64,000 bases of DNA, from NCBI GenBank assembly GCA_951799425.1, contig OX637402.1, positions 34,129,492 through 34,193,491 on the forward strand. The letters run 5' to 3'. Each line of letters opens with the position of its first letter. The first letter of the stretch is position 1. Both the position numbers and the translations under genes were made by a program. The notes beneath the pieces were generated by a model. That model saw nothing but the letters and a program-made list of their open reading frames with translations. It was not told the DNA's origin and did not search any database. This DNA is from Ilex aquifolium (lineage: Eukaryota > Streptophyta > Magnoliopsida > Aquifoliales > Aquifoliaceae). Positions 5,700 through 63,347 of this stretch are shown here, one piece after another.

Positions 5700-6229
5700 T
5701 AAATGAATATCAATTTTTTTGTTGAATATATAATACATTATAAAGGCATTACATGAATATGAATGACATTCGATTAGTGGCAGCAGATGAACAGAACTTC
5801 CATTAACCTCCGGTGAGTGACATGCGCCCAAGGATAAAGACTAAAGAGCACTCAAAATTAATTAATGATGGTGGTTTGTGAGTCCCAATTGATCCTAATT
5901 AATTAATTAATTTGGTTTGTTTGTTGGTTTATCTGCATGGGTCAACCCTTGACCCAAAGACTTGTGGGCTGGAGAAAGAGAAACCACCAGATTAAATAAT
6001 TGAACCAACGTACATTCCACCTTTAATAGTCTGTCTGTCCCATTACTCATTGGCTAATTGTCAGTCCGAATCCCAATCCCAATCCCAATCCCAATCCCAA
6101 TCCGCTGGGTTACAATTTAATTAACTTTACCAACAAATGAAAAAATCAAACAACAAACAAAGGACTCCCCATCATCTACCTAATTCCTATTAATTCCAGC
6201 CCCTCTCTCTCTATCTCTCTCTCCAAAAT
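5700..6229 (+). promoter_or_regulatory. Upstream region of the GT92 gene with an (AATCCC)n microsatellite
   Basis: No gene lies in these 530 bases. Six to seven copies of a hexamer AATCCC/TCCCAA run from about 6065 to 6104. A CT-rich leader (CTCTCTCTATCTCTCTCTCC, about 6204-6225) sits immediately before the start codon at 6230, as is common in plant 5' leaders. No TATA box can be singled out with confidence. Confidence 0.5.
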
Positions 6230-8008
6230 ATGGCCCGAAAAGTCCGTAGGTCCTTTCTTTACGTGTTAGTCTTAATCTTCTTCTTGCCTTCTGTCTATCG
6301 CCATCTCTTTTGCGATTTCATCTCCGGCGAACGACTCCGTCCATCCTCCGTCCCACTCAAAGCCCCTCAGACCAACGTACCCCATCAAGCTATCGATGAA
6401 AACCTCAATCACCAGACCACCCCTCACCTCACTGGTACCGTATCCTCCGTCCCAACCTCATCATCAATCTCCACCGTCTCAATCTTATTGCAGGATTGGC
6501 AAGTCCTCGTTATTGTGTCGCCGGAGACTCCGGTGACTACTGATTTCGATGAATTTGCTTGTCTTTTCCCAAACAACGATACATCTCGGGCGACACCAGC
6601 CGGAGAATTATCTTTTCCCAACCGGACGATGTTCAAGTGCGAATTACCTGTCAGAATCCGGCGACGATTGCCTTTGCGCCAGCCGATTTTGATTAAATCA
6701 ACAGGTACTCCGCCGGATAGAAAAACCCCGGTACCGGAGTTGCTACGATGGAACTACGTGGTGTACGACTCTCTTACCACCGAAGACGACGTCGTTCTCT
6801 TCGTTAAGGGTCTGAATAATCGCCAAGGCAGTGGTCGAGACCCAAAAGAATTCAAGTGCGTTTTTGGCGATGACCCAATTAACGGCGTTAGAACAGCCGT
6901 TACAAGCTCAGTGCAAGAAGTGTTCCGTTGCCAACGCCCGGATTTAACAGCAATTACTCCTTCTGGCGGGGAGAGAATCAAAGTCTCAGTCGAACTTTCC
7001 GGCGTCAAACTGATGGTTCCGTCGATAGCATACTACACCATCTCCCCCTCGCGCAAGGTAGCAAACAAAGACGAGAAAGTGAAGTTGTGCGCGTGTACAA
7101 TGGTTTTCAACGTGGCCAAGTTCTTGAAAGAATGGGTTGTGTACCATTCGAAAATTGGAATTGATAGATTCATATTGTATGATAATGGCAGCGATGATGA
7201 TTTGAACGAAGTGGTCGAAGAGTTAATCCAAGAGGGTTATGACATGAAGACACTGTTTTGGTTTTGGCCCAAGACACAGGAGGCTGGTTTTTCTCATTCT
7301 GCTATTTATGCCAAGGATTCATGTATGTGGATGGCTTATATTGATGTCGATGAGTTCATACACTCTCCTTCATGGTACAAAGATTCCTCACCCCCATCTA
7401 AATCCTTATTAAAATCGTTGTTGCCAATGCCCAGAAGGTACTCAGATGATCATAATGAACCATCGTCATCATGGTCGTCATCTTCTTCTTCTTCTCTGTC
7501 TTTGCCAACGTCCAAGCCATGGGTTGGGCAAATAAGGATTGGGTGTCATGAATTCGGGCCATCGGATCAGAAGTCTAACCCAAAAGAGGGAGTGATGCAA
7601 GGGTACAATTGCCGGAAGAAAATGGAGAACCGGCACAAGTCTATAGTGTTGTTGGACGCCATTGATGACTCGTTGCTCAACCTGATACACCATTTCCGAT
7701 TAAAGGAAGGTTACAGGACGAGGAAATTTAACATTCACAGCATGGTGGTGAATCATTATAAGTTCCAAGCGTGGCCTGAGTTTAAGGCCAAGTTTAGAAG
7801 ACGGGTCTCAGCTTTTGTTGTGGATTGGACACGACAAACCAATCTCAAGTCAAATGATAGGACTCCGGGATTAGGGTATGCACAGGTTGAACCCCGAGGG
7901 TGGCCTCGAAAATTCTGTGAAGTATATGACAATGGATTGAAAGAGTTGACACGGAGATGGTTCGGGGTTGAGTCTCCGTCCGGCTACAGCATGGTCTGGC
8001 AAAGATGA
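6230..8008 (+). CDS. Glycosyltransferase family 92 (DUF23) protein, single exon
   Basis: A 592-residue intronless gene. Residues about 8-27 form a hydrophobic signal-anchor (FLYVLVLIFFLPSVYRHLF) after a basic start, typical of a type II Golgi membrane protein. The GT92 catalytic domain spans about 283-545. It opens with KLCACTMVFNVAKFLKEWV, continues with IGIDRFILYDNGSDD, and holds the metal-binding DxD as D372-V-D374 (YIDVDEFIHSP). Conserved Cys/His/Asn motifs follow in the second half. Related plant GT92 proteins include the pectin beta-1,4-galactan synthases GALS1-3. This one resembles the At1g27200/RCOM_0530710-type branch more, so a cell-wall glycan role is likely but the sugar substrate is not known. 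A Ser-rich loop at about 410-425 is low complexity. The first ATG follows a CT-rich leader and gives the expected anchor. Confidence 0.92.
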   Translation: MARKVRRSFLYVLVLIFFLPSVYRHLFCDFISGERLRPSSVPLKAPQTNVPHQAIDENLNHQTTPHLTGTVSSVPTSSSISTVSILLQDWQVLVIVSPETPVTTDFDEFACLFPNNDTSRATPAGELSFPNRTMFKCELPVRIRRRLPLRQPILIKSTGTPPDRKTPVPELLRWNYVVYDSLTTEDDVVLFVKGLNNRQGSGRDPKEFKCVFGDDPINGVRTAVTSSVQEVFRCQRPDLTAITPSGGERIKVSVELSGVKLMVPSIAYYTISPSRKVANKDEKVKLCACTMVFNVAKFLKEWVVYHSKIGIDRFILYDNGSDDDLNEVVEELIQEGYDMKTLFWFWPKTQEAGFSHSAIYAKDSCMWMAYIDVDEFIHSPSWYKDSSPPSKSLLKSLLPMPRRYSDDHNEPSSSWSSSSSSSLSLPTSKPWVGQIRIGCHEFGPSDQKSNPKEGVMQGYNCRKKMENRHKSIVLLDAIDDSLLNLIHHFRLKEGYRTRKFNIHSMVVNHYKFQAWPEFKAKFRRRVSAFVVDWTRQTNLKSNDRTPGLGYAQVEPRGWPRKFCEVYDNGLKELTRRWFGVESPSGYSMVWQR

Positions 8009-16500: not shown

Positions 16501-19500
16501 TTGGCTCACTAACCACCTAAGACCCAACTCTAATATCATGTTAGAGTATCCAATCCAATCCAAAAACAATTGGCAATGGATGGAGTGGCCTCTCAACAAT
16601 ATAAATCAACCTTAGTGATCCTAATTATTCAATCTATGATACAAGCCCTCTTAACAAAAACAAAGCCAAGTATAGGCTGCATTCATACAAATTGATGAGA
16701 TGTTTATTGATAATTTTCTTCAACACTAACCAAAAAGCCCATATGGCCCTATATTTTCGTTTTCTCCCAAATTGCTGTTTTTGTTAGTAATACATATAAC
16801 GTTTTCTGCATGAAGGGCACTAGAAGAGAAATGGAATAATGGTGAGCCAGAGATAGTCCCGAGTTAAAATGCACAGGGTAGTAGAGAGCAATCCACATAC
16901 TATCTTTGAGGTGCATTACAAACTCCAGCCTACATTCTAACAAAGCTGCTAAAATTACAATAAAGCCCAAATCGAATTTCACTACTATGGAAAAACAAAA
17001 ATTGTATACCACTATAAATGGCCACTAAATAGCCATTACAGGCAAGATCCACCTTATAAAATATGCCTTAGCAAACAGTGAAAGGAAAGTTCCTCTGTTT
17101 ACTGGAAAAGGAAAAGGAGTTCTCATAAAAAAAAATATCTTTCTTGTGTGCTTGTCAGAAGCACATCACATGCTCGCAGTAAGCAGCACAAGCTGCCAGA
17201 AACAGCAGACCATAAGCATTAAGCGGTAGACTATATTATGTACTTTTCTCCTATCCACGGCATGTCAAAGAACAGTTCACTTGATAGTTCAAGCAGGCCT
17301 CTGAAGTACTGGCAAATACTTTTCACCTGAGTAAAATGGTGGTAATGGAACGGGAACAACTGGGAAGAGGTATTTAAGGAAAGGAGAGATTCCAAAAAGA
17401 ATTAACATTCAAACCCACGATAAAAATCAATGGTCACAAGTACATTGGACAATGGAAGAAAGATGCAATGACAAAAATTTAAAAACGCATTCAACTAAAA
17501 TCAATTCTTGTGAAATTAGTCTTTTGTTTTATAGTCTCCAGATTAGAACTATCCTTATATAACTATGAATGTCATCATATCATATGACATTTTAACTACA
17601 TCCACAATCCAGTCCCAATTGCAATCATCCTCCTCTCTTCATTTAACCAATTTCAGCCATTAATTTAAACAAAAAACAAAATACAGGCTGTATCTCTCCC
17701 ATATTTGCTGTCCTCTCAATAGTATTCACTTAGCAATGATTATAAAATCAGGCATCCAAAATTGATGTTTTTAGGCTGTTTTCTTTTTCCTTTTCATTTT
17801 CAAACAAAAAAAAAAGCACCGAAAAACATTTGAAATACCTAATATAAAGAATGGAAGTGAGGACCATAAAATTGGAGGTGGTTAATAGAGAAGTGCTTGG
17901 TGTTCAGTTAGGGACATCCTGAAGTCATAGCATCATACAATAAGCCCGGGTTAATTGTGCCATAGAGGATAAACTGACGTAGCTAAGGTATACTATATGT
18001 TGAAGTCATAATATCTACCAAAATCATGCAAATGCCGGAGTTAATAGAAATCACCAATACCGTATTGAAATGTACCAACACCCAACCATCATATTTTAAG
18101 ATATCCCAGAGTACACAACCAACCTCCAAATCTTCCAAGTTTGAATAAAGTCCCTGGTCAAGTTTTCTCCTCACAGTCCCAAAATCCATTGGATGTTCAA
18201 TAATTTCAAGGTAATCAGGTAGCTGCATGGAAACTATTTCTATATCAATTTAAGATATATCAATTCCAAAAATGGAAAATCAAAGTACAATCAGTTTAAA
18301 TGCGACATTTCCAGAAAAAGCACCTCATTCGGATCAACAGGTTCTGAGAAAACCCCATAAGTGTCCTTCCTGCCGTCAAATGTATATAACCCAAAGAATT
18401 AAAATCAAAACCCAAATGTGAGAGTAAAAGAAAACGGATTTCTAAGAAGCTAATAAAAGAAAGTCACACACTTTTGAAGCCTGTCAAGAATGAACACCAA
18501 CAACTTTTTGTCTGGCAAAGGTGTTGTGGGGCCAGACTCCAAAGGCGACCCTGTCCATAAATAAATGGCACAAATTAGACTAACATAGATTAAATTTGCC
18601 TTTTTCTTCGAGAATGGAAGATTTAATTGGTACCATGTAGAGCGTCCGTCGCAATCGAAACCTATTCGTCAGCAAAATTAACCCAGTACCAATAGTTAGA
18701 ACAGAAACATAATTAGATATAAATCTAGCTGTTATTAAAGATTCAACAACAATAAAAGCCACAGTAAAAAGGTCAGAAGAAGCAGATAATAAAACAACGC
18801 CACAACAAGCACAAGTGGAATAACTGAGAATAATTAAAAGAAAAGACAAATTTGAACTTTTCTGGTGTAGTAATAGATAAAGGTCCGATTAATTACAAAC
18901 AATCAAGAAAATAATAATAATAAGAAGCATTTATACATAGAAACTGTAGACTAAAGCTCATCCACATTTTATTTCACAATACTAAAAAAGAAATAAATAT
19001 TTACTCTAGGCAAAAGACCCTTGACCAAGTCAAAACACAAACACCCACTTCCGATCTAGGAAGTCACAGAAAAGAACCTTCGAATTGCGCGCGAAATCCA
19101 AAAAGATTCAAAACAATTCAAGGTACAGAAACCTCAAAAGATAACCACACACTATCAAAAATAGGAAAACCAAAAAAAAAAAACGTCTTTTACCATTTTC
19201 CAAAAATATAAACATATTGCAAAGGATTCGAATTTCTAAAAGTAAAAAAAAAAATGGGGAAAACGCCGATGAATAAATATTCACTACCTGATAAGCATCG
19301 ACGTCGTCAGATCTGTCACTAACAGCATTGATCTTACGTTTCTTGATCGAAGTCTCGTTATTCTCGCCATCCTCGTCCGAATTTGAACCCGAATCCAGAG
19401 AAGAAGAATGATGAAAATGTTGCTTCAATTGGGGCAAACGAACAACGAGTTTGACTTTTTTCTCTTTCCTCTCATCATCGTCGTCGTTGTCGATAAATTC

Positions 19501-27585: not shown

Positions 27586-29079
27586 TCAGCTCTCAAGTTG
27601 CAGCAACTGAAACGTCATTTGCTTATCCAGGTTGAATCCTGCCATCTCCGCCTCCTTGCAGACTTCCTTACACTTTGCCAGCCTCCCAGAAGCCACATAA
27701 ATTTTAATCACGTCTCGGTATATGTCAAATGTCGGAGAAAAACCTGCCTCCTTAAGTTTAGAGTAATATCTAACTGTCCTTGATAGATCATTCAAAGCAA
27801 CAAAAAGCTTTATTACCACACGATAAGCAGGAAGATCTAAAAGACAATTGGCAGCTTCCATTTCCCATATCACAGCCAATGCCTCCCTATATTTTTTCTC
27901 AGTGTAACGACTATGAACCAGAGTAGTGTACATGACCACACTTGGATTGCGACCAGTTTGTTTGAACCAATTATACAAATTCTCCACAATTTCAAATTTT
28001 CCAAGCCTTATGCAGACTTTCATGATAGCTGTACAGTCTTGCTGTGTTAAATTCAGATCTTCTCTCTCCCCTAGCTCGTCCAGTAGGGCCAAAACTAGCA
28101 AGTGTTTATCAGGATTCTTCCCCAACTCTAAAATTAGCTTAGCATAAATGCTAAGATCCAACATTCTTTTACCATTCTTAGCAGCTGCAACAAGTTTCCA
28201 GGCAAGTTTTAAGCTTCCCGCCCTAATAAATCCCTTTATCATTGCCTCATAAACACTCTGGCTTGCCAAGCTAATGAACTTTTCCAAGTTGAATGGCATT
28301 TTTAACTCATGAGCCCTTGCCAAGACTTCAACAGTCGAAGCAAGAATATGATCATCAGGGAATAAATGTGGTTGTTTCTGAGCCCAACAGAATATCTGTA
28401 GAGCTCGATCAGGAAGATCCATGTGACCCAACTCTCGGATTGTTAAGGATAGGGACCCTTTCCGAAGAAACCGATCCCACTTGTTGAGAATTTCAGACAC
28501 ATCTTCGTTAGGGGGAAGGCTTCTAATCTCTCTGGCCAAATCAACCAAGAAACTTGGATTCTTGTACACTTGATTATAAAATAATTGTCGGGAAGAAATT
28601 GTTGTAGAGAAAGCTCTTCTTGCATGCTTCTTTGGTGTGGGAAGTCCCAGAGGTCGAAGCTTGTATGGAAGTGGCAGAGGAAGAGGTCTTTCCCTACTCA
28701 ATTTTCCAGGTTTTTGAGGAATCCTTCCTCTGAAGAGGGATGAAATTGCTTCAATCTCATCGGAGTCCCAAACAGTATTCATATCGTCGTCTTCTTCATT
28801 TACTTCTTTCCATTCTTCTTCAGCATTTTCATCATCATCAGTATCGGATTCATCATGGTTATCAACCACGAGACTTCCATCAAGTGAATCAGGTGTCTCG
28901 TTTTTTAACAAAAAATCATGAGGATTGAAGTCAGTGCCATCGGTGTCAGGACTGTATTTCTTCTTCTTCTTCTTCAAGAATGTGTTCACACCAATGTCTG
29001 GTGGAAACTTGGTGCGCCGAGGATATCGAAGGTTCTTGGGCAGTTTTCTATGGAAAATTCTGGTATTAGGTTGAGCCAT
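27586..29079 (-). CDS. EMB975: Pentatricopeptide repeat protein, EMB975 (At2g01860)-like
   Basis: An intronless gene. Starting at 29079 it encodes 497 residues beginning MAQPNTRIFHRKLP. The frame stays open to an upstream ATG at 29205 (539 residues). The shorter start is preferred because, from memory, the Arabidopsis protein begins near this point (K/R-rich, YPRRTK, PPDIGVN). Domains in order: a basic organelle-targeting-like N-terminus, an Asp/Glu-rich linker (about 60-110), a Pro/Leu-rich KPGKL-RPLPLPLPYKLRPLGLPTPKK segment, and about six P-class PPR helical repeats to the C-terminus (e.g. PSVVMYTTLVHSRYTEKKY). PPR proteins bind organelle RNA. Loss of EMB975 is reported as embryo-defective in Arabidopsis. 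The gene is divergent from the next PPR gene, with 1.4 kb between starts. Confidence 0.85.
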   Translation of the reverse strand: MAQPNTRIFHRKLPKNLRYPRRTKFPPDIGVNTFLKKKKKKYSPDTDGTDFNPHDFLLKNETPDSLDGSLVVDNHDESDTDDDENAEEEWKEVNEEDDDMNTVWDSDEIEAISSLFRGRIPQKPGKLSRERPLPLPLPYKLRPLGLPTPKKHARRAFSTTISSRQLFYNQVYKNPSFLVDLAREIRSLPPNEDVSEILNKWDRFLRKGSLSLTIRELGHMDLPDRALQIFCWAQKQPHLFPDDHILASTVEVLARAHELKMPFNLEKFISLASQSVYEAMIKGFIRAGSLKLAWKLVAAAKNGKRMLDLSIYAKLILELGKNPDKHLLVLALLDELGEREDLNLTQQDCTAIMKVCIRLGKFEIVENLYNWFKQTGRNPSVVMYTTLVHSRYTEKKYREALAVIWEMEAANCLLDLPAYRVVIKLFVALNDLSRTVRYYSKLKEAGFSPTFDIYRDVIKIYVASGRLAKCKEVCKEAEMAGFNLDKQMTFQLLQLES

Positions 29080-29588
29080 CACAATTACGGGACGCGGGGC
29101 CGAAATTTTTTGCCCGAGTGCAGGTCTGATGGATCCTTCAAATCGATAAAAACCTCCAATTTCCGAGACGGGATACGGACCGCGGGACCAAAATAAGCTC
29201 TCCATATCTCAATTAGGACGTCGGAGAACTTCACATGTTGTAGACTTGGAAAAAGTGCGAAAAAGGTACGTCACGAACGGAAATGTGATCACCGTCGAAC
29301 AGGAAAATCATCAAACACTTGGTATGCCACCCAAAAACTGCACCCTAGGGGTTCTCACGATTACAATAGCTATATACCACAACATTCAGAAGCAATCACG
29401 TAGAGATATGTGAGTGTTGCTGCGTGCACTTGAGCCTAACGAATCCTTGTCTGTGCAATTGCTACAGTTTGCTCATGAGCCTTTTTTCACTTCTTTTTCG
29501 GAGAAAAGTGAAATGTCATCCGTGGAAGAGACCCTTGGTAATCTGCCGATCAATAAAACTTTCATGAATACGGTAGTCTTTTTGATAC

Positions 29589-30145: not shown

Positions 30146-30488
30146 TACTGAATATAACATAAAAAAAATTGAATCGTTTTGAGTTCAAAGTGGGATTCTC
30201 CTAATTTTTTTATCTTAATTTTAATTTTTAAATTTTTTTGGCATCTCGTCTTCCTTGTTCTCTTCTCTTACCGACAGTAAATCACAAGGATGTAGACAGG
30301 GTACAAGGTGAGGAGATGGAGAAGAAGGGTAACGACCTTGTTTAAATTCGTCTCCCCAGACACAGGTACATAAAAAATGCGGCATTCATGGAAGAACCTG
30401 ATAGCCCAAGACTCAATGTGATCCACGGGAAAGTGGTATGTACACGCACACTGCAAATTTCACGGCATAGCGTCGAGATTGGCATGTC

Positions 30489-32171
30489 ATGGCGTTCCAA
30501 TCCAAAGGAATCACAGTGTTTCTCGCTCAATTCACTCGAACCAGGTACCTTTCACAATGCCTTCATTCGTTAATTCCAGTGCTTCCTTTTTCAACTCTTG
30601 ACCTACCTGTAAACCATGTGAATGGAGAACCTATGGAGAATCGATCCAATATCGACGAGTCTCATGTATTGGACCAGCTATCTGATCTGTTGTCGATCCG
30701 AGGTAGCTCAGCAATTCAAAATCCCATTACAAAGACGATTTCTGCTAACCAACTAGAAATTAGGGCAGTTGATGGATTTTTATCACCAGAAGAGAAATTA
30801 AGGGGCATTTTTCTTCAGAAAATCAGAGGTAGAAGTGCAATTGAACGCGCATTAACAGAAGTTGGTGTGGAACTAACTGATGATGTTGTTGCCAAAGTAG
30901 TGAACAGAGGCAATTTGGGTGCCGAATCGATGGTTAAGTTTTTTAATTGGGCGATCGAACAACCGAGCATATCTAAGGACATTGATGCGTACCATATAAT
31001 TCTTAAAGCATTAGGAAGAAGGAAATTCTTCACTCATATGGTGGAAATGTTACATGACATGAGGATGCGAGGAATAAGCCCTAATTCTGATACCTTATTC
31101 ATTGTTATGGACAGCTTTGCTCGAGCTCGGCAGGTTTGCAAAGCAATCCAATTTTTTGGGAAATTAGAAGATTTTGGGTCAAAATGTGATACTGAGTCCT
31201 TGAATGTTCTTTTACAGTGTCTGTGTCAGAGATCCCATGTGGGTGCTGCAAATTCATTACTCCACAAAATGAAAGAGAAAGTACCCTTCAATAGTATGAC
31301 ATACAACCTGATTATTGGTGGCTGGTCCAAATCTGGAAGGATTAGTGACATCGAGAGGATTTTGGGAGAGATGGTGGCAGGTGGATTTGATCCTAATAGC
31401 TTAACTTATGGTTACATACTTGAGGGTTTAGGTAGAGCTGGTCGAATTAATGAGGCTGTCGAGATTTTTGAAAACTTAGGAAAGGAAGGGCATGCTCTTG
31501 ATGCTAGTGTTTACAATGCAATGATCTCTAATTTCATTTCGGTTGGAAATTTTGGTGAGTGCTTGAAATACTATAAGAGTATGTTGTGTAATAGCTGTGA
31601 CCCAACTATGGATACGTATGTCAGATTGATTTCTGCCTTTCTGAAAACCCGAAGAGTTGCGGATGCTATTGAAATGCTTGATCAAATGTTAGATCGAGGG
31701 ATCATTCCCTCCACAGGAACTGTAACATCTTTCATTGAATCTTTGTGTAGCTACGGTCCACCTCATGCAGCTCTGATGTTTTATAAGAGAGCAAAAAAAG
31801 TTGGATGTAGAATATCTTTGAGTGCCTATAAACTGTTGCTTATGCGGCTTTCTAGATTTGGTAAATGTGGCATGCTGTTGAATATATGGAATGAGATGCA
31901 AGAAAGTGGGCATCCTTCTGATATGGAGGTTTATGAGCATGTCATTAATGGACTTTGCAACATAGGGCAGCTTGATAATGCTGTACTAGTCATGGAAGAA
32001 TCTTTGCGCAAAGGCTTGTGTCCAAGCAAACTTATTTGTAGCAAATTGAATAACAAATTACTGTCTTCAAATAAAGTAGAGAAGGCTTACAGGCTTCTTT
32101 TGAAGATCAAAGAAGCTCGTCGAAATGATAATGCACAGAGATATTGGCGCGCTAAAGGGTGGCATTTCTGA
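30489..32171 (+). CDS. Pentatricopeptide repeat protein, At5g43820-like
   Basis: An intronless gene of 560 residues. The N-terminus (MAFQSKGITVFLAQFTRTRY) is rich in Arg/Ser/Thr/Leu and poor in acids, as in mitochondrial targeting peptides. A linker with HVLDQLSDLLSIRG follows, and then about ten P-class PPR repeats of 35 residues from about 150 (e.g. NSMTYNLIIGGWSKSGRISD, DASVYNAMISNFISVGNF). No E, DYW or SMR tail is seen, so a role in RNA stability, splicing or translation is more likely than editing. The family match to the Arabidopsis gene At5g43820 is from memory of sequence layout. The molecular target is unknown. Confidence 0.88.
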   Translation: MAFQSKGITVFLAQFTRTRYLSQCLHSLIPVLPFSTLDLPVNHVNGEPMENRSNIDESHVLDQLSDLLSIRGSSAIQNPITKTISANQLEIRAVDGFLSPEEKLRGIFLQKIRGRSAIERALTEVGVELTDDVVAKVVNRGNLGAESMVKFFNWAIEQPSISKDIDAYHIILKALGRRKFFTHMVEMLHDMRMRGISPNSDTLFIVMDSFARARQVCKAIQFFGKLEDFGSKCDTESLNVLLQCLCQRSHVGAANSLLHKMKEKVPFNSMTYNLIIGGWSKSGRISDIERILGEMVAGGFDPNSLTYGYILEGLGRAGRINEAVEIFENLGKEGHALDASVYNAMISNFISVGNFGECLKYYKSMLCNSCDPTMDTYVRLISAFLKTRRVADAIEMLDQMLDRGIIPSTGTVTSFIESLCSYGPPHAALMFYKRAKKVGCRISLSAYKLLLMRLSRFGKCGMLLNIWNEMQESGHPSDMEVYEHVINGLCNIGQLDNAVLVMEESLRKGLCPSKLICSKLNNKLLSSNKVEKAYRLLLKIKEARRNDNAQRYWRAKGWHF

Positions 32172-42972: not shown

Positions 42973-42980
42973 AAACCCTA
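42973..42980 (+). promoter_or_regulatory. Telo-box (AAACCCTA) upstream of the AIRIM-like gene
   Basis: AAACCCTA lies 110 bases before the start codon. In plants this motif is enriched in promoters and leaders of ribosomal-protein and ribosome-biogenesis genes, which fits the function proposed for the downstream gene. A single 8-mer can occur by chance. Confidence 0.45.
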
Positions 42981-43089
42981 CTCTTTCAGGGATACGTGGA
43001 ATAACCTGTGGGTTTCCTTAACTCTCTTCTGCTTGAAAGGAATGTGTGTGTGTCTTATTCAAAGAACTTGATTTGGTTGATGGGTGGTT

Positions 43090-45729
43090 ATGGAGGCAAT
43101 GGTGAAAAAATATCAGCAGAAGTTCAGAAAGGTGAGAGACGAAATGGATCGATGGGACGAACTTCAGTCTAGATTGCTTTCACAGTTCAGGAACGCTTCT
43201 TCCATTATCCAGAGGTTACAGGTCCTTCTACTACACATATATTGTATATATATTACCCTTTTTGTTTTAATCAAAAAATTACAAAAATCTACATTTTTTT
43301 GACCAGGTGATTCAAAATCCCAAGAATTATGGTGCTTTGCAATGTGTTGATGGTATTGGAGATGCACTCTTGGCAAAGCAAATGGAGTCTTTGCAGACTA
43401 TCTTGCTTTCAATGAACAAGACTATGTATGTTTTAACCATCCCTCGTTTTTATAGCTTAATATTTGTTTGCTGGGAAAATGCGGGAAAGGAAAAGAAACT
43501 AAAGTTGGAATCTTTGTATCGGCTAATCTATGTATTTTGCATATAAAATGTCTTAATTAAAACACGATTTTTAGGATTTAGTTCGGTATGTAGCTTATGA
43601 TACCATCATTGAAATGGCTGTTAAGTAAAAAACAATTGTGTGGTTCCCTTTGGACAATGCTGAATGCTTACATCTCCTTGATGGCACTGTTTTACTTTAA
43701 GGTCACATCACATATTTTGATTGTCCATATCATATGGTTTGAGATTTGATGTTGAGGTTACCGGTGCTCAATTGTACTTTTTGTTTCAAAATTTGATGGT
43801 TTTTTTTATGTTGACATCTTGATTGTCAAACTTGGTGGATTATTTCAGAAGCATTTTTTTTGTTTTTCCATCAATTGTGAACCAATTTCAGGGTAGATTT
43901 TCATGGTGTTGTTTTGTCACTTGATAAAAATTTTCGTGATGGGAGGCAGCTAGTAAAAGGGGGGTCTATGCAGCCAACAATGAAACAACTGCAGCAGCAA
44001 ATTGGTTTAAAACCAACTCTTGCAGATTGCTTGGACGGGCTTGGGCTTCTTCATGAGATGCACAATTCAGAGTATGGATTGTCTACAACTCCGCATTATT
44101 CCCTCTTTTTCTTTTTTCTTAAACCGCTGTGTAGGAATGCTAAGTGGATGTTTCAAAGCTCGATGATGTATATTTAGTCTGTGGGGTGCCAAAAGTCTTG
44201 GTGGTCACTTTTTGGGACTAAATCCTATTTTGTTAATGTCTTTTTGGCCCTTACTTATGCATTAAGTCTTGGCCTACAATTCACACATCAGCGAGTAATT
44301 GTACTTTTCTTTTGAGCAAGAGTCACTAGTTGTACTAGAGGGGGGAAATTTGGTTTACATTGTTATAGCATTCCTCGAGTGACCGCTATCTGTCAAGTCA
44401 TCAATTTCATGTATACCCTTTGTGGATGACTCCCTGGTTTGTTCTTTTGTTTATCCATTGATGTTCTTTTCTCCTTGTTTTTGGGAGTAATTGTTTTTGC
44501 ATTATCTACGTTCAAGGAAGTAGGTTACATATTTGTTATCGGCTGAAGAAGCATTTGATTCTTGTTGTGTCTCCCAATCAGGGATATATTGGCAGTCATA
44601 TGATTCCCGCACTCATTTGTTGTGACCATTTCATTGATTGGCTTTTCTTATTTGAGAAATGGTACAGGGTCAAATTTTTGGTTCTTATTTTACCGACCTG
44701 ATTACTTTTTTCCTCCTGATAATTGCTCACTTTTACTTCTGTAGGTACATTCTTAAATTATCAGTGGTATCAGCACTTCCGGCGCTAACCTTGAAACCCA
44801 GGTAATGCAAAAAGTTGGATTTTTCCCTGTTCCTATTTGAAGGCACCAAAGATTTTGCTAGCTCTATTCAAATAAGCACTACATTATAAAATATTAAACA
44901 TACTTAAAACTCTGCAACCAATTATGGATCTGGATATAGTTAACTTTCAAGTATAAGCTATCAGGTAATGGATCTCATTGTTGCCTTAACTCCTTTTCTC
45001 TTGCTTTGAAATCTGAGCCTATTAAATCCTAATCTATTGATGGAACTTTGGTTGAACATCACTATAATGGATCTCCAAAGATGATATATTGTATATGACC
45101 TGATGTGGATCATACTATTTATGAATTAGTTTAGATTATTAACAACAGATATTATTTATCTAATGTTCCATGAATCCACACGCAAAAGGGAACTTCCAAA
45201 AAAAATGCAAAAGGGGGAAATTTTCAAACACTTAAAGCTCTCTTATGAATTTAGGGCCTGCTCCATTTGCCCTTCTTTTATCGTATGTCGGTAAGTGACA
45301 TTAACAATTTGAAAAAAACATGCAATATGGATGAACTTGGATTCACCTGGAAGAGTTGTGCTCATTTTTGTAGTTGTTAGATTAGGTATCTGGATGGTTA
45401 AAACGTATTCATTCATACTATGTATACTTGATGCACTCTATCCGTTCTATTTCTTGGGATTTATGAAGGTGTCTTGACTTGATGTCATTACAGTGCCAGT
45501 GATTTAGGTGCCCTCCAGCAACTCCTGGTTGATCAGCCTAACATTCCCAATGAAGAAGGTTGGTAAATGATTCAGATGTTGGGGAACATAAGTAAAATGA
45601 TGGCTCAACTTCTGCAACCATATCAGTGTGTTGAACATGGTCAATGTAAATCTAGCATCGATCTACTTATTATTGGCTAATAAAACTGATAAAATTGAGA
45701 AGAGGATGTAAACCACCACCACCCCCCCT

Positions 45730-45762
<33 letters not shown>

Positions 45763-47149
45763 CCTCTTTCTCTCCCCTTTCCCTCCTTTTTTCCACTAAA
45801 CTAAAACAATTAGGATAACAATCTGTACTTTCCATAAAAGAATAGTGATGTACTGCCATTTACCTCCTAATGATCTGATTATTCGATCTGTAGACTAGTC
45901 AGCCTTTGAAATAGTATTGAGATTAACTGATCACCATTGAAATGTTTGACTAAATGTGGCAGAACTGATGTTTTGATGTGTAATTGAAGAAATGAAAATA
46001 CGATATTTTGGTTGGTATAAGATAGTTTTGTCTACTTTTCAGTAAATCTTTTCGAAGTCAAAATTGGATGAAGTTTTAATATGTATATATGATTTAGCAC
46101 TATAGGTATGTAGGGGTGGCAATTTTTGACACGACACGAAAACTCGACACGAACACGACACGAATAAATGGGTTTGGGTTGACTATTTTTTTGTAGAAAC
46201 CCGTGTATGACACGACCCGTCAACACGAAGTGTTAATGGGTCATGTTCTGGTTCAACCCGCTTAACCCGAATTGATCTGCCAACATGAAGTTTTTAATTT
46301 GAAGGAGATTGACCAGGCCTTTTCGTTGTATGTATGCGTTTTCATGTTCTGATGACTTGTTTTTTCTATTACTTTTGATGTTTAATTTGGTTGCGCGATA
46401 TACAATTAGCATATTTAATTAGTATTATAGAAATAAAATATTAATTATTTGTAACTGTTTATCAAGCACTGACATAATTATTGTATAAAAAATATATTAT
46501 TACTCATTATTATTATTAAATTAATTTTTAGTTTATAGAAACAGTATGAGGAGAGATTCAATTAAGTGAAAATAAAATCTTAGCGTTGAATTTTTTATTC
46601 AAAGTTTATGTGGATTAACACGAATACGAACATGAAAATAAATAGGTCAATTCGACACGACACGATTAATTAAATGAGTTGGGTTAGGGTTGACTAATGT
46701 TCGACACGACACAAGTCCAGTGTGCATGGACTGTGGGTCTGTGGTCTGTGGTCTGTGGAAATCTTTGAAAAATGATGTGGATGGATATGATAGTCGACGC
46801 GCGTTGTGTGGAACTTGTGAAGCATTATATTCCAACTGGCTAGTAATGCCTTCTTTTCATGTGTAATAAAAGCTCCAGTTTACTTATATTTTCTCATTTT
46901 TTGTTGTGGAATTTATAAGCTCTTCCTCATTTGTTGGGGTTATTTTTTCTGTTCCTCTTTTTTTTTTTTTTTTTTTTTGGTTTTTGTGGTGGGGGGCCTT
47001 ACCACGACTGATATTTACTTACAGACTAATTATTGGTAATGTTATACTTGGATTTTGTGCCGGTCTTAAAATTTGCTCCTTCCTATTGCTTTCATTTCCT
47101 TGCAGTGCAATTCATATTTGACATCATATTCGCTGAAGAGATATGTTGA
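43090..47149 (+). CDS. C1orf109/AIRIM-family protein (CA109-like), probable ribosome-maturation factor
   Basis: Six exons join in frame to 198 residues: 43090-43221, 43307-43425, 43892-44071, 44745-44801, 45494-45558, 47106-47149. Every intron is GT-AG. The protein is nearly all helical. Residues 1-44 form a coiled coil ([20 protein letters not shown]), followed by [57 protein letters not shown] and a C-terminal [13 protein letters not shown]. Human C1orf109 (about 203 residues) has the same layout: a W-containing first helix, the VLxK repeat, PSVADML/PTLADCL, and a DI(L/I)..FF end. It is part of the AFG2A-AFG2B-CINP (55LCC) complex in ribosome maturation. From memory the Arabidopsis counterpart is the uncharacterised At5g43822. 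Function in plants is inferred. Intron 5 carries a hAT-like fragment. Confidence 0.75.
45722..45770. repeat. Poly(C)/poly(A) homopolymer tract in AIRIM intron 5
   Basis: CCCCCCCTCC, then more than 15 C, then nine A, then CCCCC. It lies in the intron, so it has no coding effect. Its length may be a sequencing artefact or variable. Confidence 0.8.
46111..46715. mobile_element. hAT-like element, right end truncated, in AIRIM intron 5
   Basis: The left end is TAGGGGTGGCAATT, followed by GACACGACACGAA words. Near 46650-46710 the text matches the inner right end of the element at 1-105, but the terminal CACCCCTA is missing. The right end is therefore lost or strongly changed and no target duplication can be confirmed. 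It sits in the 1.5-kb fifth intron of the AIRIM-like gene, in the same direction as the gene. Confidence 0.65.
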
Positions 47150-55049: not shown

Positions 55050-58000
55050 ATGGCGGAGCCTCCGCTGCGGTTGATCTTCGTAGTTGCAGTATTATTCTCA
55101 ATTTTATATACTGTTTACTGCATCGATGACAAATGCGCTGCTTGCAATGCAGTCGCGGTGAGTAATCATCTCTCTCTCTCTATTAATTTTTTTTTTATTG
55201 TGTGTGTGTGTGTAATGCAATCCCGCAAGCTCTAGATCTCTACGCTACTCCGTTTAGGACTAATTCACGCAATAAATTTTGGTTGGCTAAGTTCGGTTGC
55301 TGATTTCTTTCTTTTTTTGTCTCATGATTTGCAGGAGGAACTGGAGCGTGGACTGTTGAATGTAATGAGTTATAGTTTTATCAGTTGTTTTTTAATCCTT
55401 GACACCTGGAGAATATGGATGTAATTCTCCAGAAACATATAAATTTTAAGGCATAAATATTTACTTTCATTAAAATTCGACTCATAAGGTCCAAAGCCGC
55501 TGCATATGGAATTCCCAGCTCCTCTTTTTCTCTTTTATCACCACGTTACTAAAAGAAGAAACATAGTTTTACTCACTAACTTTCATGGAAGTCACTTCAT
55601 CCTTTGTGGTTTCACATTACCCCAAATTATTTTGTCTGTAAATTTTTATATTTTGTACAGGAAAAACCAAGAAATCATTTGGACATGAGACACCGATTGG
55701 ACCCGCATGGTCAGCGTAAAGGAAAGGTAATAGATTACAGGTATAAATCCATGCTCCAGATGTATTATATTATTTTAGTCCAATTTCACCTGCAGCATGG
55801 ACAGCGTCTTTACCCTTTCATGCAAGCCTTGAAAGTATTAATCACCGATTCTTTGGTTCAACTCTTGTGAGCCTGATTTGAAATGATGTTTTTTGCCTAC
55901 CTTGACAAAAACTCACATTCTAGAAAAAAAGGAAAAGAAAAAGTGATATATTGTAAACTGTTGACTCTGATCTGTATGACATCTGGAAGCTTTGGTCAAG
56001 ATCTTTCACCAGATGAGCTATTCTAGTATTTACTTTTCTTTATGGGCGATTGTTAACTGCATATTGTCCACTTTGTGCCAACAGAGTCAGTGAGCTGAGA
56101 GTTGTTGAACTATTAGATGGACTGTGTGAAAAGATGCAAGATTATACTCTTGAAAAGGTAATTCTTTGTTTGATTTGGATACTTGTTTGCCACTTTACCT
56201 TTTGTTACGTAGATGTCGCATATGTTGCAATCAAAATCACAGTAGTAAATATATGTTTCAACTGATTGAATAACTTGCTTATGATTTTCACCTATTCTCA
56301 TATATAATTGATAATTGAATGATCAGTGAACAAGTATTGTTTAAGTGGCTCTGTGCATAAAATAATCATCCTTTGCAGTCTCCACATCATGAGATTTTAA
56401 CAATTTTTGGGGCAAGTAATTAGTGGTACCTCATGAATGTTGATGCTAAACTCTCCGATTTGCAGGTCGATTCAAGCGGACATGTATGGATCAAAGTGAA
56501 TAATTGGGATAACCTCACTACTAGTATGTATATCTAACTTCATTGGATAAATACATCATCTCATACTCAAGCTTACATGGACCCATAAAATTGGTGCCTA
56601 GACAATCACAATGCTTCTTATTTCAATGATTACTACTTGAATTTGTTCAATACATTTGCTGATTAATTATATGCAGCAGCATGCTGTTCAATTGTTTTTA
56701 TTAATGAGAAAGAGAATGTATTGTGTGGTTGACAACTAAATATTCTACCTGATATAATTTCCTTTTTAGAAATTCTTGTTGTCTAGGCAATAAAAAAGAG
56801 AAGGTGAAAGTGGTATGCAAATTTTCTTACCTGACATGTTGGTTTTAACACGAGGGAATAGTTGATAACCCCAAGGGTCAGGCTCTGCTGTGGTCCACCA
56901 CCCGTCTCTAATTGTCCATAGTGTGCATAATTGCTATGATTAGGATGTAAGATGGAGCTACAGTTGCTAATGCAAGAACCACGGGATAGACTAATGGATT
57001 CTGGCACACTTTACGACATCCTGAATAGAAGAGGAGCTCGATTGCACGGTGCATGACATATGAGGACATTATTGTTTCAACTAATAAAAGTGTAGTAGCC
57101 TATTAAATCTTGACATGTGTACCAACAACGATTGACTTGTGAAATCGGAGGACCTGGGGGCAACTTTACTCGACATATCGTGGCGCTTCGTTAAGACGAC
57201 AATTAAGAAGATAGGGCATTGGGACCTACTCAAATGGCAAGTATGACATCTCAATCAAACAATTAAATGTGATCTCTAAGCCTTGGCTCTAGCAAAGCTT
57301 GGAAGGCTTAGCCTACATAGTGTAGTAAGCCTTGAGGTTTATGTCTATTACGACTTGGCCGATGTGTGACTTGGCACTTTCTGTTTCGATATCGTTTCAC
57401 ATTCAATGTAAATGATGAGTATTACATGACTCATCGAGTCATCCAAGATGTCTCCGCGTCAACCCAAAGTTTGAACCTCTTATCATGTTCAATTTTTTCT
57501 ATCTAGCATTTTGTACATATCACCTTATATCATTTGTCGATTTCGCAATCTATGTCTCTCAGTGCAGTCTAGTCAATGACCAATACTACATCTTGAACCA
57601 TGTCCTCGGGTGAGCACAATTGGTTAATCCTCTAGTATAGAACTATAGCTCGAGTATCCCACGGTTACCAAGCTGCAACCCTGCCCACTCGAGTATTGGA
57701 GCCACATTATGCATGCACCGAGGGATGCCCCACCAAGTTAAGTAGCCTTGGGACTCATGCACGCATTTTGCATAAGGAAAATGCTATGCTTACCAAAAAA
57801 AAAGTTTATCAAAAGAATGTGGATGGTTGGATCAGTGAGTCTCATCAAAAGAAGTTAATAGGACCCATTAATCCAATTATCTAAATTCATTTGGTAAACT
57901 TTTTTGATAAGCATAGCATTATTCTTTGCAAATAGACGGTGATGGGCACAATCAATGCGCATCTTAACCTGATTGAATAATGTAGTAAATAACCTCATAC

Positions 58001-60961: not shown

Positions 60962-63347
60962 TCACGAGTTACTTTCCAATACACCTTTCAGAAAATTCAG
61001 CCCTTCTGCTGAAATACTCCTCCTAACTCGGGTTTGGAGTATCTCTATTCGAGGGGGAGGATCCATCGAGAAACAGATTACAATAACTGTCAAATTATCA
61101 CATGTATTGCGCTTGAGTGCTTCCCTAACCAGCTCTCTCGAGCATCTTTCAGGATCATTGTGTAGCATCAGTTCTTTCCTTGCCATTGTAACAGCATACT
61201 GGCTGCTCATCACGTCCCAGAGGCCATCACAACCCATTATCAGAAACTCATCATCCTCAGTCAATGGTGTCCCCTGCAACTCTGGCTCTGCACTTAAGGG
61301 GCAGGCAGAACCTTTAGGGTCCTTCATGTGCCAATCTCCAAGAGCACGTGCCACAGATAATTGGCCATTGAGGTACCCATCATATATAACTCCACCGAGT
61401 TTTTCTATTCTTAGTCTTTCAGATGTGCAGTTGGGTTTGTGGTCCTTAGACAGCTCAATTGCTCTACCTCGTTTACCCAGCACAGCCCGACAATCCCCAG
61501 CATTGGCAACTATCATTGTTCTATGAAGAGGAAGGCAAGTGTCAAATATAATGCAACACCTAATCCCCCAAAAAGAATATTCCCCCCCCCCCCCCCCCCA
61601 AAAAAAAAAAAAAAAAAGAAAAGAAAGAAAACACACTACCTGACACAACCACACACAACTAAAAAAGCAAATTCAGAAACCTATCCATTCCAAGAACAAA
61701 ACAGAAACAACCTAAAAGTGGATTAAAAAGTGCCCAATACTCCTCACTTTACTGTTAAGAACAAATATGATAAATTCATGGTTTTTTTTAATGTACCAAA
61801 AAAAACAATTAGTTTTTCCAGTGGTACCGTGCACAAAATTATTCTTTGCAATTCCAAGCAGTAGTCAGGAGCCCAAGAGACTTCTGCAAGAATCAGCTTT
61901 TCATAAATGCAGGGGAAATCACTCTGCAGCCTTTCTCAGAATGATTTTGATGACATCATCACATTGTGTCATCATTATCTAGATCATATTTCTAATGGGA
62001 AAAACTACGAATTTCAAAACAGGAAAAAATCATGGTTCACTTACCTTCCAAATATCAGAGCAGTCAATGCAGTGGTGCCGGAGGAGATGTCAAGAGAACT
62101 ATCATCTGCAAATGCATGATCAGCTGTCACGAAAGCATTCTTCATTGCCTTCTCCAAACACACAGGAAAATGGGCGTCCTCAACTATAAACTTGAGAATG
62201 TTCTTTCTAATAAATGATGCTGCATCAGTACCACCATGGCCATCAAACACCTGTTGACTTGAACTAATAAACGTCCATTCAAGAAAAAGTAAAACAATAT
62301 TGAATTTGAAATTTTAATAATTTAGCTCATAAAATCATGACAGCAGAGGTGATACTTCAAAAAATGCAAATGCCCTCAAATTGAAGATAATAAGAACTAC
62401 AGACTACAAGTAATTTGAAAGAAAAATTACTACGAATAATACCTAAAACACATTTCAGGTGGAGCTCATTCAGAGCAAATTAGCACCAAGAATTTTATTC
62501 ATTATAACATTCAAAGCACATTTTTAATAATTTTATGAAATCATGGCAGCAAAGGTGATACTTCAAAATAGTACCAACCTCCAAATGACAGATTATTACT
62601 AAAGCCCACGAACTGAAGATAATAAAAACTATAGATGATGCATTTAAAAGACAAATTATTACTCAAAATAACATTCAATGCACATTCCACTTAAAACACA
62701 TTCAGATCAAATTATGACTATGAATCTTATTCAACAACACTATTGTGGACAGTAGGTAGCATACTAAGAGTCCAAATAAGATAGTTATATTACAAAAATC
62801 CACTTGCAGGCTGATCATTTCAAAAATGAAGAGTAGGTTTCCTGAAATTTGCCCAAACTATGATGGTGTCATCCAGTTGGATGGGACCTGTAAATTTTCT
62901 TGTGTAAACTAGTGTGCCAAGTCGAATAAAAGGCACTGATCATGATTAGACACCAAAAAACTCATTTAAGGCCAAAAGGAGAAATGACCCATCAATAGGG
63001 ATTTAATAATTATCCAGCATCTATACAAGCTTGAACCCAACATATGCAAAAAGAAACCAGAATGACTATATTTAACAATCGGGAAGCGGGATCAGCATTA
63101 CGGTATAGTAAATCAACACCAATATTCACGTAAATGATATTTTGTTACACACCCCATAAAAAGCTCCAGGGGAAGGGAAACCTGCACTGCCACCCAAATG
63201 TTCTAGAAGATCGTCTATACATATGTGTTCATCCTCCATGTACTCCTTGGGTCCTTTCTCAGCACAGCTTCCTGATCGAAACACCGGTACGAAGTCTGAT
63301 TTTCCATCTGAAGGTGACTTGATGCTAACAACCCCATTATCTAAATC
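60962..63347 (-). CDS. PP2C27: Protein phosphatase 2C, PP2C27/PP2C47-like, 5' end not in window or not found
   Basis: Three exons give 254 C-terminal residues: 63347-63153, 62250-62045, 61520-60962, joined by GT-AG introns in frame. PP2C motifs in order: [20 protein letters not shown] with the ED pair of [90 protein letters not shown]. All metal-binding Asp residues expected of the family are present, so it should be an active Mn/Mg-dependent Ser/Thr phosphatase. The text is very close to my memory of Arabidopsis PP2C27 (At2g33700) and PP2C47. The first exon before DLDNGVV is not visible in 63400-64000 and probably lies beyond the edge. A 210-bp tandem repeat lies in the first visible intron. 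Confidence 0.9.
61578..61618. repeat. Poly(C)/poly(A) tract in the last PP2C intron
   Basis: A run of about 19 C followed by about 19 A lies about 60 bases inside the intron from the acceptor side (minus strand: poly-T then poly-G). It is outside the coding exons. Confidence 0.8.
62312..62740. repeat. 210-bp tandem duplication in a PP2C intron
   Basis: TTTTAATAATTT, AAATCATGRCAGCARAGGTG, ATACTTCAAAA, TGAAGATAATAARAACTA and AACATTCAAWGCACATT recur with a spacing of about 210 bases (starts 62312 and 62522). The two units differ by many substitutions and small indels, so the duplication is old. Confidence 0.82.

Follow-up and report, generated by a model that had tools for sequence, protein, structure and literature searches.

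A C1orf109/AIRIM-family gene of Ilex aquifolium, very probably the counterpart of Arabidopsis OPENER

The window analysed here, a stretch of 64,000 nucleotides from Ilex aquifolium (contig OX637402.1), carries on its plus strand at 43090-47149 a gene of six exons that read in one frame. Its 597 nt encode 198 amino acids and a stop codon, with a predicted mass of 22.36 kDa. All five introns have GT...AG borders, and the phases fit. A preliminary description of this DNA had arrived at the same six-exon, 198-residue reconstruction, and its exon coordinates were reproduced exactly. The parts of the gene, with their matches to the Pfam profile PF15011, are as follows:

43090..43221, plus strand: exon 1, residues 1-44, whose ATG is the first in frame past the stop at 43078-43080; alone it matches profile positions 1-38 (E = 3.3e-12)
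43307..43425, plus strand: exon 2; alone it matches profile positions 40-78 (E = 3.3e-07)
43892..44071, plus strand: exon 3; alone it matches profile positions 82-138 (E = 1e-15)
44745..44801, plus strand: exon 4, within the full-length profile match (residues 7-170); its own stretch has no match
45494..45558, plus strand: exon 5, only its first residues inside the profile match; no match alone
45559..47105, plus strand: intron 5, 1547 nt, repeat-rich around 46105-46715, with poly-C/poly-A near 45725-45760
47106..47149, plus strand: exon 6 with the stop codon, a proposed C-terminal helix; outside the profile, its own stretch without a match, and the least certain exon

By its sequence profile, the protein is a member of the C1orf109/AIRIM family, as the preliminary description had claimed. 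The profile search named there as a check returned PF15011, 'Ribosome biogenesis protein C1orf109-like' (CA109-like), with E = 1.8e-54 and 184.4 bits, against a curated cut-off of 27 bits. Residues 7-170 align with positions 1-161 of 161, which is the whole profile. When six exon-containing stretches were scanned separately (those of exons 4 and 6 with some in-frame intron sequence), exons 1, 2 and 3 each matched in profile order, while exon 5 and the stretches of exons 4 and 6 gave no profile match. Neither of two composition-matched shuffles matched PF15011, and one of them gave an unrelated match with E = 0.15. Given the full-profile E-value, the ordered exon matches and the shuffles without a match, the agreement is far beyond chance. 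The size also fits the family norm of about 200 residues (203 in human). A plant protein of the C1orf109 kind can thus be assigned by sequence profile, beyond fold comparison. Searches for relatives elsewhere gave 14 pattern matches in viral contigs and 40 in prokaryote genomes, none of which was confirmed.

Since C1orf109 figures in a list of minor-intron genes, the introns were also examined for minor (U12-type) signals. None of the five introns carries the two signals tested, and a minor-intron reading of the gene was dropped. The stretch 46105-46715 of intron 5, with two copies of TGGGTTNGGGTTGACTA and several repeats of the GACACGACACGA type, looks like a small transposon remnant. At 45725-45760 a long poly-C run is followed by poly-A; the complementarity of this segment with the T/G-rich tract at 46967-46996 is ~70–75%.

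Upstream of the gene lies one further element:

42973..42980, plus strand: telo-box-like 8-mer AAACCCTA, 110 bases from the ATG

The preliminary description saw this element as fitting co-regulation with ribosome biogenesis. The site is indeed present at that distance, but the window holds 6 copies of the 8-mer where 3.14 would be expected, a count that 6 of 100 shuffles also reached, and site II elements (TGGGCY or its complement) are missing from the 1 kb upstream of the gene. By itself, the telo-box offers weak evidence for such co-regulation.

We searched the genome of the same species (800,232,872 bases in 103 contigs) for further copies, for ATPase partners and for L24-type substrates. 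With PF15011, all three matches, from five candidates that were all scored, proved to be exons of the gene at 43090-47149. By profile search, the genome would hold a single C1orf109-like gene, although a copy that has diverged or is broken into small pieces could escape such a search. In the control genomes a sub-cut-off match in Bacillus subtilis was taken as noise. The L24e family (PF01246) gave 13 exon matches, in which RPL24 and RLP24 are counted together.

A search for the CDC48 subfamily gave 27 matches, with 19 of 299 candidates scored. One locus, L034 (C19:22582000-22591900, minus strand), has two AAA-type regions, and the P-loop of its D2 domain, GPPGCSKT, is identical to that of AFG2A in PDB 8RHN. 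Among the five alignments listed, scoring the P-loop region as a single domain gave 103.9 bits with AFG2A D2 and 91.2 bits with archaeal VCP D2. A longer D2 piece did not discriminate (AFG2A 289.4, CDC48A 290.2, archaeal VCP 300.9). Judged from P-loop and domain score, L034 is a CIP111/AFG2A-type ATPase gene. Contig C15 carries three sequences closely resembling its D2 exon, two of which are fragmented; the best piece of each is, in turn, 92, 86 and 89% identical:

C15:24339207-24339632: near copy of the L034 D2 exon (L036)
C15:23088690-23089096: near copy of the L034 D2 exon (L037 with L051)
C15:23225749-23226118: near copy of the L034 D2 exon (L038)

Their state suggests duplicated or decaying sequence.

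Other ATPase loci were considered as candidates for AFG2B/CDC48D. L020 was rejected, as its best one-stretch match is YTA7/ATAD2-like (with two stretches, archaeal VCP comes first), and so were L021, L022 and L024, which best match the FtsH relative AFG3L2. The comparison with PDB sequences left out L018, L023 and five loci that we take to be CDC48 (L014-L017 and L019). Read by motif, L055 is presumably katanin-like, L056 PEX1-like, L057 and L058 FtsH-like and L059 CDC48-like.

A plant system with such components has already been published. According to a 2025 study (PMC12332008), the Arabidopsis complex consists of OPNR (OPENER, AT5G43822), OAP1, OAP2, CDC48D and CIP111, and OPNR is structurally similar to human C1orf109. 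In mutants of this complex, RPL24C, NOG1-1 and BUD20 stay on cytoplasmic 60S fractions, and polysomes are lost (PMC12332008). OPENER is essential, according to 2019 work as cited in reviews and in the introduction of PMC12332008. The statement in the preliminary description that no plant function had been described is thus superseded: essentiality was published in 2019 and the complex in 2025. Its link between the family and AFG2-type ATPases is borne out by the published complexes. A plant 55LCC complex, which it named as a candidate, has already been shown in Arabidopsis, with a make-up that differs in the OPNR-OAP1-OAP2 trimer. The family, the Arabidopsis protein and the complex are already known, and the locus described here is a well-predicted member of a described system.

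We consider it very probable that the gene is the orthologue of OPNR and the counterpart of human C1orf109/AIRIM, acting as an adaptor in release of the L24 placeholder. Orthology to AT5G43822 is what we infer from these data, and by analogy the Ilex aquifolium protein would have the same function as Arabidopsis OPNR. Most likely, the protein would be a small helical adaptor that forms a trimer with OAP1 (CINP-like) and OAP2. This trimer would dock onto the N-terminal domains of a hexameric AAA+ ATPase of the AFG2 type (CIP111 with CDC48D), bind the placeholder RPL24C on cytoplasmic pre-60S particles and pass it to the motor. Once the motor has stripped off RPL24C, NOG1 and BUD20 could leave and the 60S subunit could mature. 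This mechanism is carried over from studies of Arabidopsis and human. What the Ilex aquifolium genome itself provides is the gene model, its family, a profile search that shows no second copy, and one CIP111/AFG2A-type gene.

Several results weigh against this proposal. A pairwise phmmer search against PDB sequences (E up to 10, in a set not confirmed to hold an AIRIM chain) listed no AIRIM chain; all five hits were unrelated by name, the best with E = 0.23. The tie to human AIRIM hence rests on the Pfam profile and the published structure comparison. For so distant a relative, it is the profile that is defining and not direct pairwise similarity. When whole-sequence scores of the L034 piece were summed over two domains, archaeal VCP (176.3) exceeded AFG2A (172.3). 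A CDC48D/AFG2B gene was not recognised among four loci compared with PDB sequences and five read by motif, which is no evidence of absence: of 92 matches in a further search, a minority were followed up. In Arabidopsis mutants the cytosolic RPL24C-YFP signal dropped, opposite to expectation; the authors deem this assay ill-suited and base their claim on 60S proteomics and on the retention of NOG1-1 and BUD20 (PMC12332008). Finally, exon 6 lacks homology support, and a helical-moment test of its peptide was negative, as 7913 of 10000 shuffles equalled or exceeded the observed value. Synteny with the Arabidopsis neighbour At5g43820 was of no help, since a gene listing and the available passage of PMC3022909 gave nothing usable.

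The results on exon 6 lead to an alternative in which the family is correct but the 3' end is wrong, so that the protein stops in exon 5 or continues in another last exon. Without exon 6, exon 5 would run past its donor to an early stop, and the protein would end in EEGW. Taking each of 87 AGs beyond exon 5 as an in-frame acceptor gave tails of which the 12 longest had 31 to 62 codons. Exon 6 is not dictated by frame, because other acceptors also yield in-frame tails. On the other side, a pyrimidine tract precedes exon 6, giving a good acceptor context with the frame kept, and the total length is near that of human AIRIM. A C-terminal helix is also expected, because human AIRIM has V190 in helix alpha 5. 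V185 of the plant protein lies 13 residues before the end, as does V190 of 203 in human, which may be coincidence. Exon 6 as the C-terminal helix proposed in the preliminary description is plausible, but gains no separate support from helical moment or profile. A wrong 3' end seems rather unlikely.

Alternatively, this C1orf109-family protein might have its main role elsewhere. Reviews place OPNR at the nuclear envelope and in mitochondria and state that it binds SUN1/SUN2, and a role in replisome turnover has been proposed for human 55LCC. However, the retention of ribosome assembly factors on 60S and the loss of polysomes in the Arabidopsis mutants speak for ribosome maturation, and we regard a different main role as very unlikely. 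It is also very unlikely that the gene corresponds to OAP1 or OAP2, another trimer subunit, even though the predicted structures of OPNR, OAP1 and OAP2 are alike (PMC12332008).

The remainder of the window contains several other coding stretches:

6194-8005, plus strand: glycosyltransferase family 92 open frame
17986-18249, minus strand: bromodomain stretch
27589-29208, minus strand, and 30471-32168, plus strand: two long pentatricopeptide-repeat frames, one per strand, of 540 and 566 codons
49361-53466, plus strand: U-box domain and armadillo-type repeats across successive frames, a combination known from U-box ARM proteins of plants
56017-56262, plus strand: DUF3456/MSAP stretch
62044-62313, minus strand: PP2C phosphatase stretch

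Little new follows from the OPNR-like locus alone. Its use is as an extra plant sequence for tracing the AFG2 adaptor, which forms a trimer in plants and a heterodimer in animals, with none described in yeast. A 2019 analysis (PMC6865273) lists C1orf109 as a gene that arose after the last eukaryotic common ancestor, whereas the plant protein matches the full family profile. Possibly, the common ancestor of plants and animals already used adaptors of the C1orf109 type with its AFG2 motors, and the adaptor-free Drg1 homohexamer of yeast is a later simplification; we see this idea as evenly balanced. If true, it becomes testable whether the animal pair and the plant trimer of OPNR, OAP1 and OAP2 descend from a single ancestral adaptor family.

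Compared with known systems, the protein shares PF15011, by name and by profile, with human C1orf109/AIRIM of the 55LCC complex (AFG2A-AFG2B-AIRIM-CINP, PDB 8RHN; PMC11055677 and PMC12339376), and the human protein has 203 residues against 198 here. It differs in that phmmer does not connect the two pairwise. The human complex contains two C1orf109-CINP heterodimers, in contrast to the OPNR-OAP1-OAP2 trimer of Arabidopsis. Yeast Drg1/AFG2 with Rlp24 works at this step too, taking the L24 placeholder off pre-60S particles; unlike the plant and human complexes, it is a homohexamer that binds Rlp24 itself, and the available passages of PMC12332008 describe no such adaptors for it. The closest parallel is Arabidopsis. 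Although no CDC48D orthologue was identified among the candidates examined, OPNR is likewise a plant C1orf109-like protein of similar size (23 kDa versus 22.4 kDa here) and is described as single-copy, as is consistent with the one gene found by profile in Ilex aquifolium, whose genome also contains a CIP111-type gene.
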